Shown piece by piece: positions 1 to 36,175 of a DNA stretch of 51,385 nucleotides. The position numbers and the translations under genes were made by a program. The stretch is taken from the NCBI GenBank assembly GCA_016867315.1, contig VGJV01000002.1:1-51385 (forward strand), given 5' to 3'. The stretch is from Candidatus Liptonbacteria bacterium. Its GTDB lineage: Bacteria > Patescibacteriota > Minisyncoccia > UBA6257 > 2-01-FULL-56-20. The notes beneath the pieces are model-generated. The model was not told the origin of the DNA. It saw only the letters and a program-made list of their open reading frames with translations, and ran no database searches. Positions within the stretch are counted from its first letter, which is position 1. Every line of letters starts with the position of its first letter.

Positions 1-97
1 TTAAAAGCCGCAGTTTGATGCAGGCGCTCGTTTTTTGGATGCTCAAGGAACAACTCCAGCTTAAAAGCTGGAGTTTTAGTCAAGTTCCTTGACATAA
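1..97. repeat. Modular hairpin element, copy A (3' part; cut by window edge)
   Basis: Matches the 3' part of the elements at 4529 and 15961: the AGCCGCAGT stem arm (5-13), then GGCGC and TCGTTT arms, then a terminal hairpin with outer stem TCAAGGAAC (43-51) and GTTCCTTGA (84-92) around an inner AACTCCAGC stem, ending in CATAA. The window opens with TTAA before the arm instead of the two inner hairpins of the longer copies, so this may be a short variant whose arm closes directly on itself. That part is inference because the left half lies outside the window. Confidence 0.75.
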
Positions 98-4514: not shown

Positions 4515-4528
4515 TCTCCACAATCACA

Positions 4529-4695
4529 AAAACGATGCGCCACCTCGGCTTAAACCTCGAGGATGTGAATCCTCGATGGCAGTCAGGAATCTAAGATTCC
4601 TGATGAGCCGAGGTTTGTTGCAGGCGCTCGTTTTTGGAGATGCTCGGGAACCACCACACCTTGAAAGGTGTGGTTTTCATCGGTTCCCGACATAA
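4529..4695. repeat. Modular hairpin element, copy B (complete; probable structured RNA or REP-like element)
   Basis: Closing stem AAACGA (4530-4535) with TCGTTT (4628-4633), then GCGCC (4537-4541) with GGCGC (4623-4627), then ACCTCGGCT (4542-4550) with AGCCGAGGT (4606-4614). Inside are two hairpins, TCGAGGAT/ATCCTCGA (4557-4576) and TCAGGAATC/GATTCCTGA (4583-4603, loop TAA). A separate 3' hairpin pairs TCGGGAACC (4644-4652) with GGTTCCCGA (4682-4690) around an inner ACCACACC stem. The third stem differs from copy C at two base pairs and stays paired; the 3' hairpin is largely rewritten and stays paired. Transcribed strand unknown. Confidence 0.85.
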
Positions 4696-5258: not shown

Positions 5259-5831
5259 ATGGCAACAGGATTATATCATCAATTAAGACAGGTATGGAAA
5301 AAGCCGAGCAGAGAGATGATTCATGGAAGAATGATTCAATGGAGGGCCGGTGAAGCCGCTGTTGTAGTAGAGAAACCAGAGCGCCTTGACAAAGCCCGTG
5401 CCTTGGGTTATAAAGCTAAAGTAGGTTTTGTAGTTGTAAGGATTCGTGTTAAGAGAGGAGGACGCCAAAGGCCTCGCCACAAACATGGAAGAAAAAGCAG
5501 AAAGCAGCATGTAAGAAAGATTCTGAAGATGAATTACAGATGGGTCGCTGAGATTAGAGCAGCAAGAAAATATCCTACATTGGAAGTCCTAAACTCATAT
5601 CCTCTTGGTAAGGATGGAAAATATTACTTTTACGAGGTCATCCTTGTAGATCCTTCTAGACCTGAGATTAAGAATGATAATGTAATCAACTGGATATGTA
5701 ATCCGTCTAATCGAAGAAGGGCAGAAAGAGGATTGACCAGCGCAGCTAAGAAGTCTCGTGGCCTGAGGACAAAGAGCCCAAACATGAAAGTGCGCCCAAG
5801 CCAGAGAGCCTGGGGAAGAAAAGGCAAGTAA
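5259..5831 (+). CDS. rpl15e: Archaeal/eukaryal ribosomal protein L15e (eL15)
   Basis: Large-subunit ribosomal protein with no bacterial counterpart, so it is the clearest archaeal marker in the left part. The 190-residue product is very basic and shows family blocks: YHQLRQVWKKP near the N-terminus, RVKRGGRQRPRHKHGRKS near residue 65, YRWVAEIRAARKYPTLEVLNS near 100, and the C-terminal RAWGRKGK tail. Length matches the family. The start follows a TATA box at 5230 with leaderless spacing. Confidence 0.98.
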   Translation: MATGLYHQLRQVWKKPSREMIHGRMIQWRAGEAAVVVEKPERLDKARALGYKAKVGFVVVRIRVKRGGRQRPRHKHGRKSRKQHVRKILKMNYRWVAEIRAARKYPTLEVLNSYPLGKDGKYYFYEVILVDPSRPEIKNDNVINWICNPSNRRRAERGLTSAAKKSRGLRTKSPNMKVRPSQRAWGRKGK

Positions 5832-15903: not shown

Positions 15904-15960
15904 TTAATTCTAAAATTAATTGGTTATATCTCTTTTTTAAACATCTATTCTTAAAAATCA

Positions 15961-16181
15961 AAAAAACGATGCGCCACTGCGGCTTAAACCTCGAGGATGT
16001 GAATCCTCGATGGCAGTCAGGAATCTTAGATTCCTGATGAGCCGCAGTTTGATGCAGGCGCTCGTTTCACCAAGAACATTGTTCTTGGATGCCATCAAGA
16101 ATAGAAGATTCTTGAGGTTTGGATGCTCAAGGAACAACTCCAGCTTAAAAGCTGGAGTTTTAGTCAAGTTCCTTGACATAA
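15961..16181. repeat. Modular hairpin element, copy C (longest; probable structured RNA)
   Basis: Closing stems AAACGA (15964-15969)/TCGTTT (16062-16067), GCGCC (15971-15975)/GGCGC (16057-16061) and ACTGCGGCT (15976-15984)/AGCCGCAGT (16040-16048) enclose hairpins at 15991-16010 and 16017-16037. Then come an extra pair of hairpins, CCAAGAAC/GTTCTTGG (16070-16088) and TCAAGAAT/ATTCTTGA (16095-16115), which read like the two inner hairpins but on the opposite strand. Last is the terminal hairpin TCAAGGAAC (16127-16135)/GTTCCTTGA (16168-16176) and CATAA. It lies between convergent genes, two bases from the tRNA-Lys 3' end. Confidence 0.88.
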
Positions 16182-16183
16182 AA

Positions 16184-16405
16184 TGGCCTCGAGGGGATTT
16201 GAACCCCCGACACCTGGATTTCCTAAGAAACCTACGGTTCGTCAAGGACGAAGTCCTTGAGCACGCTCAGGAATCTTTGATTCCTGACGTCTTGTGGGTC
16301 AACTTCCCTCAAGAAAATGCCTTATGTCCCCGAGGAGGGTTCATAAGGGTAACGTAGTTCCCTTATTAAGAGTCCAGTACTCTGACCGGGCTGAGCTACG
16401 AGGCC
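16184..16405 (-). tRNA. tRNA-Lys (anticodon CTT) with a 147-base intron
   Basis: The acceptor stem GGCCTCG pairs fully with CGAGGCC and discriminator A is at 16184; CCA is not encoded. D, anticodon (CTGGA/TCCAG) and T arms (GGGGG/CCCCT) all form. The anticodon loop reads CTCTTA then resumes at A, placing an intron after position 37 at 16220-16366. That is the usual archaeal site, cut by the splicing endonuclease at a bulge-helix-bulge; the exact boundary may shift by a base or two. 5' exon 16367-16405, 3' exon 16184-16219. The intron carries a double hairpin of the modular repeat family and an ATAAGGG/CCCTTAT stem at its 5' end. Confidence 0.93.
16242..16287. repeat. Double-hairpin element inside the tRNA-Lys intron
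   Basis: Read on the plus strand: TCAAGGAC-GAA-GTCCTTGA (16242-16260), linker GCACGC, TCAGGAATC-TTT-GATTCCTGA (16267-16287), then CG. The unit at 18494-18546 has the same order and a GCACGA linker, with a G-C pair in each stem replaced by A-T. The second hairpin also matches a hairpin in copies B, C and D. Confidence 0.8.
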
Positions 16406-17880: not shown

Positions 17881-18459
17881 ATGGACTTTGATTCAGTTAT
17901 AGACAAGAGGCACTCTGTAAGAGCTTTCAAAAATAAGAAAGCAAGTTGGAAGCTCGTATTAGATGCAATTGATGCTGCAAATCAAGGGCCATTTGCAGAT
18001 AACATAAACCCGCTTAAGTTTCTGATAATCGAAGAGCAGTCTACAATTGACAAGGTCTCGGAGCTATCAGGACAACTATGGATAAATGAATCAAGTATTT
18101 TAGTCATAGTCTGTTCAGATGATACTCATCTTGAACACCTTCACGGCCAGCGTGGAAAGAGATATTCAAGGCAACAATCTGGGGCAGCCATAAATACCTT
18201 CATTCTAAAATTAACAGACCTAGGCCTCTCATCATGCTGGGTAGGGGCATTCACAGACGATCTAATAAAGCAACATCTCAAGATTCCAGGACATATTGAA
18301 ATAGAAGCAATCATCCCTATTGGTTATGAAAAGACAAAAAGCAACAAAAGAAGGAAAAGACCTTTGGAAAACACTCTCAATTGGGAATCCTGGGGTTCCA
18401 CAAAGCGCCCCTCATTATTCAACGAAGATGCTCCCGACCCAGATTTGATAGAGTCGTGA
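17881..18459 (+). CDS. Nitroreductase-family flavoprotein
   Basis: A 192-residue FMN-dependent oxidoreductase fold. Family blocks: IDKRHSVRAFKNKK at the N-terminus (FMN phosphate site), AANQGPFADNINPLKFLI, AAINTFILKLTDLGLSSCWVG near residue 105, and IPIGYEKTK near 140. The physiological substrate is unknown. A TATA box TTTTATAC at 17853-17860 ends 20 bases before the ATG. A 28-bp copy of the end of the neighbouring VOC gene begins 4 bases after its stop. Confidence 0.9.
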   Translation: MDFDSVIDKRHSVRAFKNKKASWKLVLDAIDAANQGPFADNINPLKFLIIEEQSTIDKVSELSGQLWINESSILVIVCSDDTHLEHLHGQRGKRYSRQQSGAAINTFILKLTDLGLSSCWVGAFTDDLIKQHLKIPGHIEIEAIIPIGYEKTKSNKRRKRPLENTLNWESWGSTKRPSLFNEDAPDPDLIES

Positions 18460-18463
18460 TCAC

Positions 18464-18618
18464 TCCTGCAGATGAAACTCAACTTTCATCCTGTCAAGAA
18501 CTTTGTTCTTGAGCACGATCAAGAATTGCGTTAAACCAATTCTTGACGCATCAGAGTTTTTGAAAAAAATTACTGATGGGATGATATTATTCCTGCAGAT
18601 GAAACTCAACTTTCATCC
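18464..18618. repeat. 28-bp direct repeat flanking a double-hairpin element
   Basis: An identical 28-bp stretch beginning TCCTGCAGATGAAACTC occurs at 18464-18491 and 18591-18618. The second copy is the 3' coding end of the VOC gene. Between them lies a double hairpin: TCAAGAAC-TTT-GTTCTTGA (18494-18512), linker GCACGA, and TCAAGAATTG/CAATTCTTGA (18519-18546), followed by CGCA. The layout could be a target duplication or a copying event linked to the element. Confidence 0.8.
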
Positions 18619-18976
18619 CATCGGGATCCTTAGTGAATATGGCAGTTCCACCGTATCCATCATCAGTTATTCCATTATCTTCCATTTCTATTCCCATTTT
18701 ACGTAAGGTTCCCTCTATTTCATCCAAGTCTTCTCTGGTATCAATCTTAAAAGCCCAGTGATTTAGTCCTAGTTTCTCAGGATCAAAAGTCTCGTCTTTT
18801 CCAATTACCAATTGAGAATTCGCGAGCCATAGTGAAAACATTCCATCGGTCAAACCACAAACATCTTCCTCATCATGCATTACTTCCATCCCACATACAT
18901 CTCTGTAGAAATCACGTGATTTAGAAATATTCCGCACAATCAAAGTAATATGATGAACTCCAGTTGTTGTAACCAT
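18587..18976 (-). CDS. VOC-family (glyoxalase/bleomycin-resistance-type) protein
   Basis: 129 residues forming two paired beta-alpha-beta-beta-beta modules. HHITLIVRNISKSRDFY opens the first, HWAFKIDTRE opens the second, and KVEFHLQ closes it; His and Glu positions in these blocks are the usual metal ligands. Members are lyases, dioxygenases or binding proteins; the substrate here is not evident. Length is typical. The final codons lie in the 28-bp repeat that is copied upstream at 18464. Confidence 0.9.
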   Translation of the reverse strand: MVTTTGVHHITLIVRNISKSRDFYRDVCGMEVMHDEEDVCGLTDGMFSLWLANSQLVIGKDETFDPEKLGLNHWAFKIDTREDLDEIEGTLRKMGIEMEDNGITDDGYGGTAIFTKDPDGMKVEFHLQE

Positions 18977-25737: not shown

Positions 25738-25898
25738 GTACCACAATTTCTTTTAGAAGAGATTTGTTTCATGCATGATGCTGAACAAGTACATAAATTC
25801 CCAATTTAGATTGGAAAGCAACTAGAGGAAATAGGTAAATTAAGAAGTAATAATTCAAAGGCATTTTCATTTAACCATCCTTCTCTTAGACTATCACT

Positions 25899-26005
25899 AA
25901 AACGATGCGCCACTTCAGATTCATTATAGAAGAAGTTAATCTTAAATGGCAGTCAGGAATCTTAGAATCTTGATGAGGTGTGTTTTTGGTCGATTCTCAA
26001 CATAA
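25899..26005. repeat. Modular hairpin element, copy D (degenerate)
   Basis: Starts with the same 5' arm (AAAACGATGCGCCACT) as copies B and C and keeps ATGGCAGTCAGGAATC and the TGATGAG junction, but the first inner hairpin, the closing arms and the terminal hairpin are eroded. It ends in CATAA and abuts the aspS stop codon at 26006 directly. It looks like a decayed relic. Confidence 0.75.
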
Positions 26006-27400: not shown

Positions 27401-27464
27401 GCCAAATCCAAATAAACGCGCTTTTTAACCCTTTTCTTTCAGAAAACCTTACTTTGTTAAGATC

Positions 27465-27511
27465 TCAAAGTCTATCGGACTTTGATGGCCATCAAGGATT
27501 AATATCCATGA
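27465..27511 (-). repeat. Modular double-hairpin element on the minus strand
   Basis: Minus-strand order: a hairpin TCATGGAT/ATCCTTGA (one mismatch) at 27511-27492, linker TGGCCA, then TCAAAGTC-CGATA-GACTTTGA at 27485-27465. The flanks AAACCTC and GATGGC are the same as around the inner hairpins of copies B and C. It lies upstream of the aspS start. Confidence 0.65.
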
Positions 27512-27547
27512 GGTTTCCTAAATCTTATTTTTAACCCTTATGCTACA

Positions 27548-34328: not shown

Positions 34329-34738
34329 CTAAGGCAATAATTTCAGACTTTCATCTTTCTTCAAGGCATAGTTCTTTCTCGAGTAATAAAGAGACACCAA
34401 CTCGTTTACTACCCAAGTCACTGCCAGCAACAGTGCGAAGAATGCTCCTCCGATGGGTGTAGCGTAGGCAGGCTATCACTTTCAAGATAACTCAGTATGC
34501 CTGCGATTACTCCGACAGTAGTTATCAAACGTAAAGAGCCGATAGAATTGCGAGTGCTTTCAGCACCCATCTCACCAAATCTGGCAATAGTCGCACCAAG
34601 ATAATTGTCAGTCATCTTCCAGAGTTCCTTGATATAGGACAAAGTATCTTCAAGAGTCTCATATTTATATGAGAATATTTGGTCAAGAGTTTCATCAATT
34701 TTCTGCGTATTTGCAATCTTTCCTCTTGTCCTCAGATA
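34329..34738 (-). pseudogene. Truncated, frameshifted copy of the gene at 35519-36175
   Basis: Nearly identical to 35519-35929 over 410 bases, starting at CTAAGGCAAT and stopping at CCTCAGATA in both. It covers the C-terminal two thirds of the membrane protein. One base is missing (GGGTGTAGCG here, GGGTGTAAGCG there), which breaks the frame; a few substitutions are scattered elsewhere. The collagen-like gene starts its 3' end 8 bases further on. This is a partial duplication, not an expressed gene. Confidence 0.9.
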
Positions 34739-35245: not shown

Positions 35246-35522
35246 ATGGCTGGCCCTTACCCATCATCGCTACCAAAAAAACAAGTATCCTTTAGAGTTG
35301 CCAGAAAAGCCCGTACAATTCTCTGAAGGAACAAAACTGCTCCTTGATATATACAGTAGAATTGTAGCAATTGCAGACCAAAATGACGCATTGAAAAGAA
35401 GAAATGATAAATATGGCCCTATTGAGATGAAATTGCCAAGATCTAAGGAAATAATGCTTGCCAACAACAAAGATCAAGAATATCTTATTAAAGAACTATA
35501 CGGAGCAAGAATTTTGACCTAA
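35246..35522 (+). pseudogene. Small hypothetical gene with an apparent +/-1 frameshift in a run of seven A
   Basis: An ATG at 35246 opens MAGPYPSSLPKK, then the frame fails after A7 at 35275-35281. Removing one A joins it to the frame that continues KYPLELPEKPVQFSEG and runs to the stop at 35520-35522. The joined product would be about 91 residues, helical and charged. No family recognised. Without correction, only a TTG at 35298 starts the longer part (74 residues). The shift may be a sequencing slip or true decay. Its stop overlaps the first bases of the 410-bp repeat. Confidence 0.6.
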
Positions 35523-36175
35523 GGCAATAATTTCAGACTTTCATCTTTCTTCAAGGCATAGTTCTTTCTCGAGTAATAAAGAGATACCAACTCGTTTACT
35601 ACCCAAGTCACTGCCAGCAACAGTGCGAAGAATGCTCCTCCGATGGGTGTAAGCGTAGGCAGGCTATCTCTTCCAAGATAACCCAGTATGCCTGCGATTA
35701 CTCCGACAGTAGTTATCAAACGTAAAGAGCCGATAGAATTACGAGTGCTTTCAGCACCCATCTCACCAAATCTGGCAAGAGTCGCACCAAGATAATTGTC
35801 AGTCATCTTCCAGAGTTCCTTGATATAAGACAAAGTATCTTCAAGAGTCTCATATTTATATGAGAATATTTGGTCAAGAGTTTCATCAATTTTCTGCGTA
35901 TTTGCAATCTTTCCTCTTGTCCTCAGATAGGAAGCCATCTGGTTTATTCTGCTCTCTATCAGCTTTATTGTCTTTTGATAAGAGTCTAATTGCGCCCTGA
36001 ATCTCTTAATATCTCTTCCTCTTATTTTGCTTTTTTCTTTTATGTCAGCTATTTCAGTCCATATCATTCTATGTATTCTAAGATAAGAATGTAATTGTGA
36101 CTTGAATTCTCTAAAAAAAATCTGCGCTTCCACTATCTGTCTTATCTTCTCAAGGGGAGCCTTGCTCACTACCAA
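35519..36175 (-). CDS. Hypothetical coiled-coil protein with two C-terminal membrane helices
   Basis: 218 residues from TTG 36175, or 216 from GTG 36169; no ATG near the start. Residues 1-130 are helical coiled coil (for example QKTIKLIESRINQMASYL). Two membrane helices follow near 155-170 and 180-197, then a basic tail. No family recognised. Its last 411 bases are copied at 34329-34738, so the gene took part in a local rearrangement. Confidence 0.65.
   Translation of the reverse strand: MVVSKAPLEKIRQIVEAQIFFREFKSQLHSYLRIHRMIWTEIADIKEKSKIRGRDIKRFRAQLDSYQKTIKLIESRINQMASYLRTRGKIANTQKIDETLDQIFSYKYETLEDTLSYIKELWKMTDNYLGATLARFGEMGAESTRNSIGSLRLITTVGVIAGILGYLGRDSLPTLTPIGGAFFALLLAVTWVVNELVSLYYSRKNYALKKDESLKLLP

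Follow-up and report, generated by a model that had tools for sequence, protein, structure and literature searches.

A PATE-like mobile element of Pacearchaeota and its probable nested hairpin cassettes

Results

The window is a chimeric contig

The window, that is, the whole 51,385-nt stretch of contig VGJV01000002.1 analyzed here (assembly GCA_016867315.1, assigned to Candidatus Liptonbacteria bacterium), is a chimeric contig that is archaeal from approximately 1 to 36.4 kb and bacterial in the remainder, with the junction near 36.42-36.44 kb. The left part encodes GatD, GatE and a TFS-like protein together with intron-bearing tRNAs, and its GatE shares 74% identity with GatE of Candidatus Pacearchaeota archaeon RIFCSPHIGHO2_12_FULL_36_23. 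The right part and the remaining genome encode DnaE, a bacterial LysRS, GyrB and a purine operon. The GC content is 35-41% until approximately 35 kb and mostly 45-54% from approximately 37 kb. A near-exact direct duplication of approximately 410 bp (98-99%; positions 34329-34738 and 35519-35929) lies close to the junction.

The archaeal part carries the repeated hairpin element studied here, of which copies A to D were found and no further copies in the assigned genome. When 244 genomes of the assigned order were searched, matches were returned only from the window's own genome and from G049, where the match lies on a contig bearing archaeal rRNA. The search of relatives of the assigned genome turned up no related element apart from this one stray contig, because that genome belongs to a bacterium and the element is carried on archaeal DNA. 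The G049 contig (C31, locus L023), 13 kb in length, carries archaeal rRNA genes for both subunits (SSU and LSU); its rRNA spacer contains three double hairpins, and a group I intron is present in the LSU gene. Like the archaeal part of the window, it is probably a stray archaeal sequence, in this case within another genome of the same order of bacteria. Such a cross-domain chimera is a warning that comparison with relatives of the assigned genome can mislead. The archaeal host genome is known only over the approximately 36 kb of the window, and the cassette census in that genome is confined to this stretch.

An exact 50-bp insertion distinguishes copy C

Copy C of the host element (15957-16181, plus strand; 125 bits with R2, a covariance model of domain 1 derived from copies B and C) was delimited from approximately 97 copies and from its structure. 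It consists, in order, of the ATCA target (15957-15960), domain 1 (15964-16067, plus strand, 104 nt), a linker, domain 2 (16122-16181, plus strand) and the right end GACATAA (16175-16181), and it contains two hairpin cassettes. Domain 1, with an outer stem, a 3' bulge and an inner stem, folds as one long stem with a three-way junction at its end, and this fold is backed by two double compensatory changes between copies C and B. In domain 2, the GATG foot pairs with CAT of the right end. The inner double-hairpin cassette (15989-16039, plus strand, 51 nt) sits in the apical TTAAA/A loop of domain 1 (slashes mark insertion points) and is absent from L025, L030, L129, L131 and most other copies.

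The second cassette (16068-16117, minus strand, 50 nt) lies between domains 1 and 2, and its sequence, coordinates and hairpins are those described in the sequence-only reading that preceded this work. On the minus strand it reads AAA/CCTC-hairpin-GATGGCAT-hairpin, the sequence from 16117 to 16068 being CCTCAAGAATCTTCTATTCTTGATGGCATCCAAGAACAATGTTCTTGGTG with AAA directly before it. R2 matched this strand at 16068-16121 with model positions 22-76, the inner double-hairpin part (24.7 bits, E=1.9e-4), and only 2 of 5000 random double hairpins scored equally against the inner cassette. Eight close hairpin pairs were found in the window versus none in four dinucleotide shuffles.

Copy A (6-97, plus strand), which is cut by the contig start, is 100% identical to copy C on either side of the insertion and has an empty site, and copy B (4523-4695, plus strand) carries an inner cassette at 4555-4605 and no linker cassette. 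At the insertion point, CGTTTTTTGGATG of copy A aligns with CGTTT[50 nt]TTTGGATG of copy C and, at the same junction, CGTTT[50 nt]TTTGG of copy C with CGTTTTTTGG of copy A, showing an exact 50-bp insertion without target duplication. Nearly all related elements also lack it, and among the copies seen, copy C alone has the inverted pair, which argues against the pair being an integral part of one fixed structure. The domain-2 stem of copy B differs from that of copy C in sequence and has the same structure. Copy D (25893-26005, plus strand) is decayed, with 77% identity over 108 bp and 25.9 bits with R2.

The chimeric junction near 36.4 kb and the position of copy A at the contig end could suggest chance or an assembly artefact, but copies B and C are 20-32 kb away from the junction, the element recurs in 48 separate genomes and the shuffles yield no such hairpin pairs, so that this explanation is scarcely credible.

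The inserted cassette is closer to an rRNA-operon cassette than to its neighbor

Against the inner pair of copy C, the two orientations of the inserted cassette scored equally (13.0 vs 13.0), a consequence of the palindromic hairpins and of a linker, GATGGCATC, that is nearly its own reverse complement. The reversed orientation scored higher than the other against the L132 cassette (31.5 vs 19.0), the 27-kb cassette of the window (14.0 vs 9.5) and the L125 cassette (23.0 vs 20.5). The reverse insertion of a double-hairpin cassette, as had been read from copy C, is thus clear in these sequence scores solely by comparison with other cassettes.

Identity to the L132 cassette, located in an rRNA operon of Pacearchaeota, is 81%, and identity to copy C's own inner pair reaches only 65%; the cassette was therefore not simply copied from the adjoining pair. 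An origin in place, with the inverted pair produced from the inner hairpins of the same element by inverted duplication or by template switching during replication and with no mobile cassette involved, would agree with the tied orientation score and with the flipping of hairpin loops between copies, a sign of strand switching at palindromes. This origin is largely refuted and now unlikely in view of the identities above, of the existence of stand-alone cassettes and of L127, which has no inner cassette and nevertheless carries a 26-nt single hairpin at the same linker point in the same orientation, while its sister copies L130 and L131 in one genome are empty there. Copy C would, as part of the nested reading presented below, probably hold two independently acquired cassettes in opposite orientation.

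Distribution and target site of the host element

The cassette-free host element is 92-140 nt long. R3, a covariance model of the cassette-free element, matched in 48 of the 200 genomes of one Pacearchaeota order, often with many near-identical copies and in several genomes with at least 17 matches each. Copy numbers are lower bounds, and the genomes are mostly metagenome assemblies. At a stricter cut-off, a phylum-wide sample of 371 genomes gave matches in 16. Approximately 18 almost identical copies with unrelated flanks are present in G292 alone.

In the alignment of approximately 97 copies, each of the four positions of the ATCA target is conserved in at least 95 copies, the right end GACATAA shows some variation, and the flank columns reveal no target duplication. 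Terminal inverted repeats are absent, the element starting with ATCAAAAA and ending with CTTGACATAA as read from alignment columns. Palindromes lie close to both ends in two stem domains with 42 pairs, and the element is too short for a transposase gene.

Reading frames were restored by in-silico removal of the element with ATCA kept, and ATCA therefore predates the insertion. Restored frames include nitrilase-like, nucleotidyltransferase-like and SemiSWEET-like genes (named by eye from translations), and open joined frames were obtained for both orientations of the element. The nitrilase-like gene is interrupted by one copy between GAATATCA and AAAAATAAATC. An intact copy of an interrupted gene may exist elsewhere. 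The orthologous tRNA locus was free of the element in four relatives.

Since near-identical copies occur in unrelated flanks and genes have been interrupted, the approximately 120-nt host element is a dispersed mobile element. The earlier proposal that the cassette and not the whole element is the mobile unit therefore holds for the cassette, whereas its second half does not, the element being dispersed as well.

Two insertions are of note for their sites: L227:301-418 (G276) interrupts a nucleotidyltransferase-like gene, possibly that of a CCA-adding enzyme, and L265:860-978 (G292) lies inside an IS200-type Y1 transposase gene. Classification as a BHB or self-splicing intron was rejected, as insertions into genes were seen in either orientation and only a few of the copies are located within genes, and an integron attC site was dropped because the ends appear to lack R-box-like sequences. 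The L007 match was set aside as a bare, terminator-like hairpin. A viral pattern scan gave 21 matches, none of which was confirmed by the covariance model, and phage and plasmid collections contained no real match to the element.

The structure of the host element is conserved by compensatory changes

Over 89 distinct rows, 96.5% of the cells of the 42-pair structure are paired, versus 74.2% in shuffled and 35-47% in slid alignments. Compensatory changes, with changes on both sides, were counted at 40 of the 42 pairs in this alignment, which was fitted to the model and whose counts lean towards structure; an independent alignment of nine sequences showed them at 24 of 42 pairs.

Very strong covariation and a three-way junction fold are also features of a functional structured RNA, regulatory or guide, whose extra hairpins would vary at the periphery, as is common among families of non-coding RNA. 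This is quite unlikely for an element with many near-identical copies per genome, unrelated flanks, no conserved neighbor, patchy presence (48/200) and gene interruptions in both orientations, and the same covariation would result from DNA hairpins required by a single-strand transposase and from template-directed palindrome correction. No Rfam family other than tRNAs exceeded its gathering score in the window, the best weak match being isrC (20.4 of 39 bits).

The linker GGATG is able to pair with ATC at the left end (through GAT) and CAT at the right end (through ATG) in 49 of 74 distinct copies according to a simple pattern, and in L164 and L166 a linker GGATC is accompanied by a right end GAT. 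IS608 uses guide pairing, which the pairing of GGATG with the ends recalls; mostly invariant bases are involved, and a guide pairing here is suggestive, not proven.

Several hairpins differ between copies solely by loop inversion. Exact reverse-complement loops occur in otherwise similar copies, namely in hairpin 2 of copies B and C, between L125 and L128 and in the L012 hairpins, and may be described as flip-flop inversion of short palindromes. Loop inversion is expected from strand switching at palindromes.

Hairpin cassettes occupy several sites inside and outside the host element

The inner pair is an insertion too, as related elements have a bare TTAAAA loop at its position and cassette-free Pacearchaeota elements matched by R2 have GGCTTAAAAGCC in place of GGCTTAAA[51 nt]AGCC. 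Three cassette insertion points were identified in host elements, all without duplication. The apical loop of domain 1 is filled in copies B and C, L125 and L128; the T-run of the linker is filled by 50 nt in copy C and by the 26-nt hairpin in L127; and GGATG/CTC is filled by a distinct family of 51-53-nt double hairpins in G423, G246 and G250, with empty sister copies in G423. Filled L206 and L212 and empty L207-L209 occur within one genome. The cassettes are 26 nt (single) or 50-53 nt (double), with the hairpins side by side. Near-identical insertion points across copies could partly reflect shared ancestry and not repeated insertion. R3 disfavors insert-bearing copies, and the frequency of cassettes is therefore underestimated.

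The claim that the cassette is mobile is borne out by homologous cassettes at the apical loop of copies B and C, the apical loop of two G246 elements, an intergenic site of the window and the G246 rRNA operon. The intergenic cassette (27461-27513, minus strand; AAA/CCTC..GATGGC..; 22.7 bits with R2, E=7e-4) stands alone upstream of the gene for aspartate--tRNA ligase. Related cassettes also lie inside a second hairpin unit, which is present in a tRNA intron of the window, the G246 LSU rRNA and the G246 rRNA spacer; in the window, this double hairpin is located at 16240-16289 (minus strand) within the intron of the tRNA gene at 16184-16405 (minus strand), inside the unit homologous to the G246 rRNA-operon inserts. 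The LSU gene of G049 is empty at the insertion point of G246.

The second unit itself, approximately 96 nt and of the form AAGTTGACC..AACCGTAGGT.., was found at L312:1518-1613 and 5430-5525, which are the G246 LSU rRNA and rRNA spacer, with 99% mutual identity, and the unit in the tRNA intron of the window is 76-77% identical to these G246 copies. By sequence comparison, this unit appears to be a third family of mobile hairpins.

In being single bulged hairpins or oppositely oriented pairs, the cassettes are similar to the REPs and BIMEs of systems with RAYT (PMC2817692), and Y1_Tnp genes are present in the Pacearchaeota order. Movement of the cassettes as REP/BIME-like units by a RAYT (Y1 REP transposase) is nevertheless very unlikely, given that no Y1_Tnp match, and no RAYT, was found in the cassette-bearing G246, that the hairpin foot lacks a GTAG-type head and that copies are few.

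Discussion

Two probable nested levels of mobile DNA

Taken together, these data probably reflect mobile DNA on two nested levels in a Pacearchaeota genome, a PATE-like host element and the hairpin cassettes within it, neither of which encodes a transposase. At the first level, the host element inserts 3' of a pre-existing ATCA without target duplication. Its most likely mode of movement is as single-stranded DNA, with an IS200/IS605-like HUH transposase supplied in trans and the linker GGATG perhaps pairing with both element ends in the manner of IS608 guide pairing. At the second level, hairpin modules of approximately 26 nt (single) and 50 nt (double) would enter structured hosts at unpaired sites and create no duplication; these sites are the domain-1 apical loop, the interdomain linker, the tRNA-intron unit, and rRNA and its spacer. 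The CCTC-type modules follow short purine runs.

An IS200/IS605-type enzyme is hinted at by Y1_Tnp matches in 26 of 48 element-bearing genomes versus 53 of 152 others (p=0.027, relatedness ignored). G246, with 11 element matches and cassettes, has no Y1_Tnp match, and a Y1 TnpA locus with matching ends was absent from a non-exhaustive sample of 39 Y1 loci and stretches of eight element-bearing genomes. As no Y1 locus in this sample shares the ends, the host element is termed PATE-like and not an IS605 derivative.

It is possible, though doubtful, that the bulged single and double hairpins of 26-53 nt constitute a new class of minimal mobile unit without an enzyme of its own, spreading in Pacearchaeota between the loops of structured sequences such as PATE-like elements, the tRNA-intron unit, and rRNA and its spacer. 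Their structure would be kept by covariation while the loops flip, and they may be moved by the transposase of the host element or by replication template switching.

Relation to known elements

The PATEs of Haloquadratum walsbyi have palindromes near their ends, no terminal inverted repeats, no duplication, no transposase and a terminal oligonucleotide that equals the target, and the small mobile repeats SMR-A insert into PATE palindromes (PMC3119063). The host element resembles PATEs in all of these respects, being too short for a transposase and having a conserved terminal oligonucleotide equal to the target (PMC3119063), but differs from them in its occurrence in a separate phylum of archaea, in that no autonomous IS605 relative sharing its ends was found, and in its domains, which are adjacent without a core and joined by a linker complementary to both ends.

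The cassettes are similar to SMR-A in being small and transposase-less and in inserting without duplication within PATE-like palindromes, as in the domain-1 apical loop of copies B and C, L125 and L128. In contrast to SMR-A, which measures approximately 110 bp and has prominent terminal inverted repeats, the cassettes are bulged single or double hairpins of approximately 26 or 50 nt and are not confined to host elements, being present in rRNA and in a tRNA intron as well. The organization of PATEs with small repeats in their palindromes was thus already known from Haloquadratum; the same logic is found here in another archaeal phylum with shorter guests consisting of hairpins only. The literature searched contained no paper on such elements in Pacearchaeota.

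The double-hairpin and other repetitive hairpin-forming elements of organelles (PMC2800124) are likewise dispersed as single and double hairpins, which lie between genes, in rRNA and in some cases within genes, whereas the cassettes described here reside on an archaeal chromosome and are nested in another mobile element. In the sponge elements (PMC2800124), stems are conserved and loops vary, whereas the stems of the present cassettes covary.

A high-copy family of mobile elements in tiny uncultured archaea is now defined by its exact boundaries, its target site and a covariance model. The presence/absence pairs within single genomes make the movement of double-hairpin elements and small mobile repeats directly testable.

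In the region 18459-18631 of the window, the 3' end of a gene (18587-18976, minus strand) occurs as two diverged copies of 46 nt (83%) with one more double hairpin between them, a layout that resembles the outcome of an insertion with duplication of the gene end.
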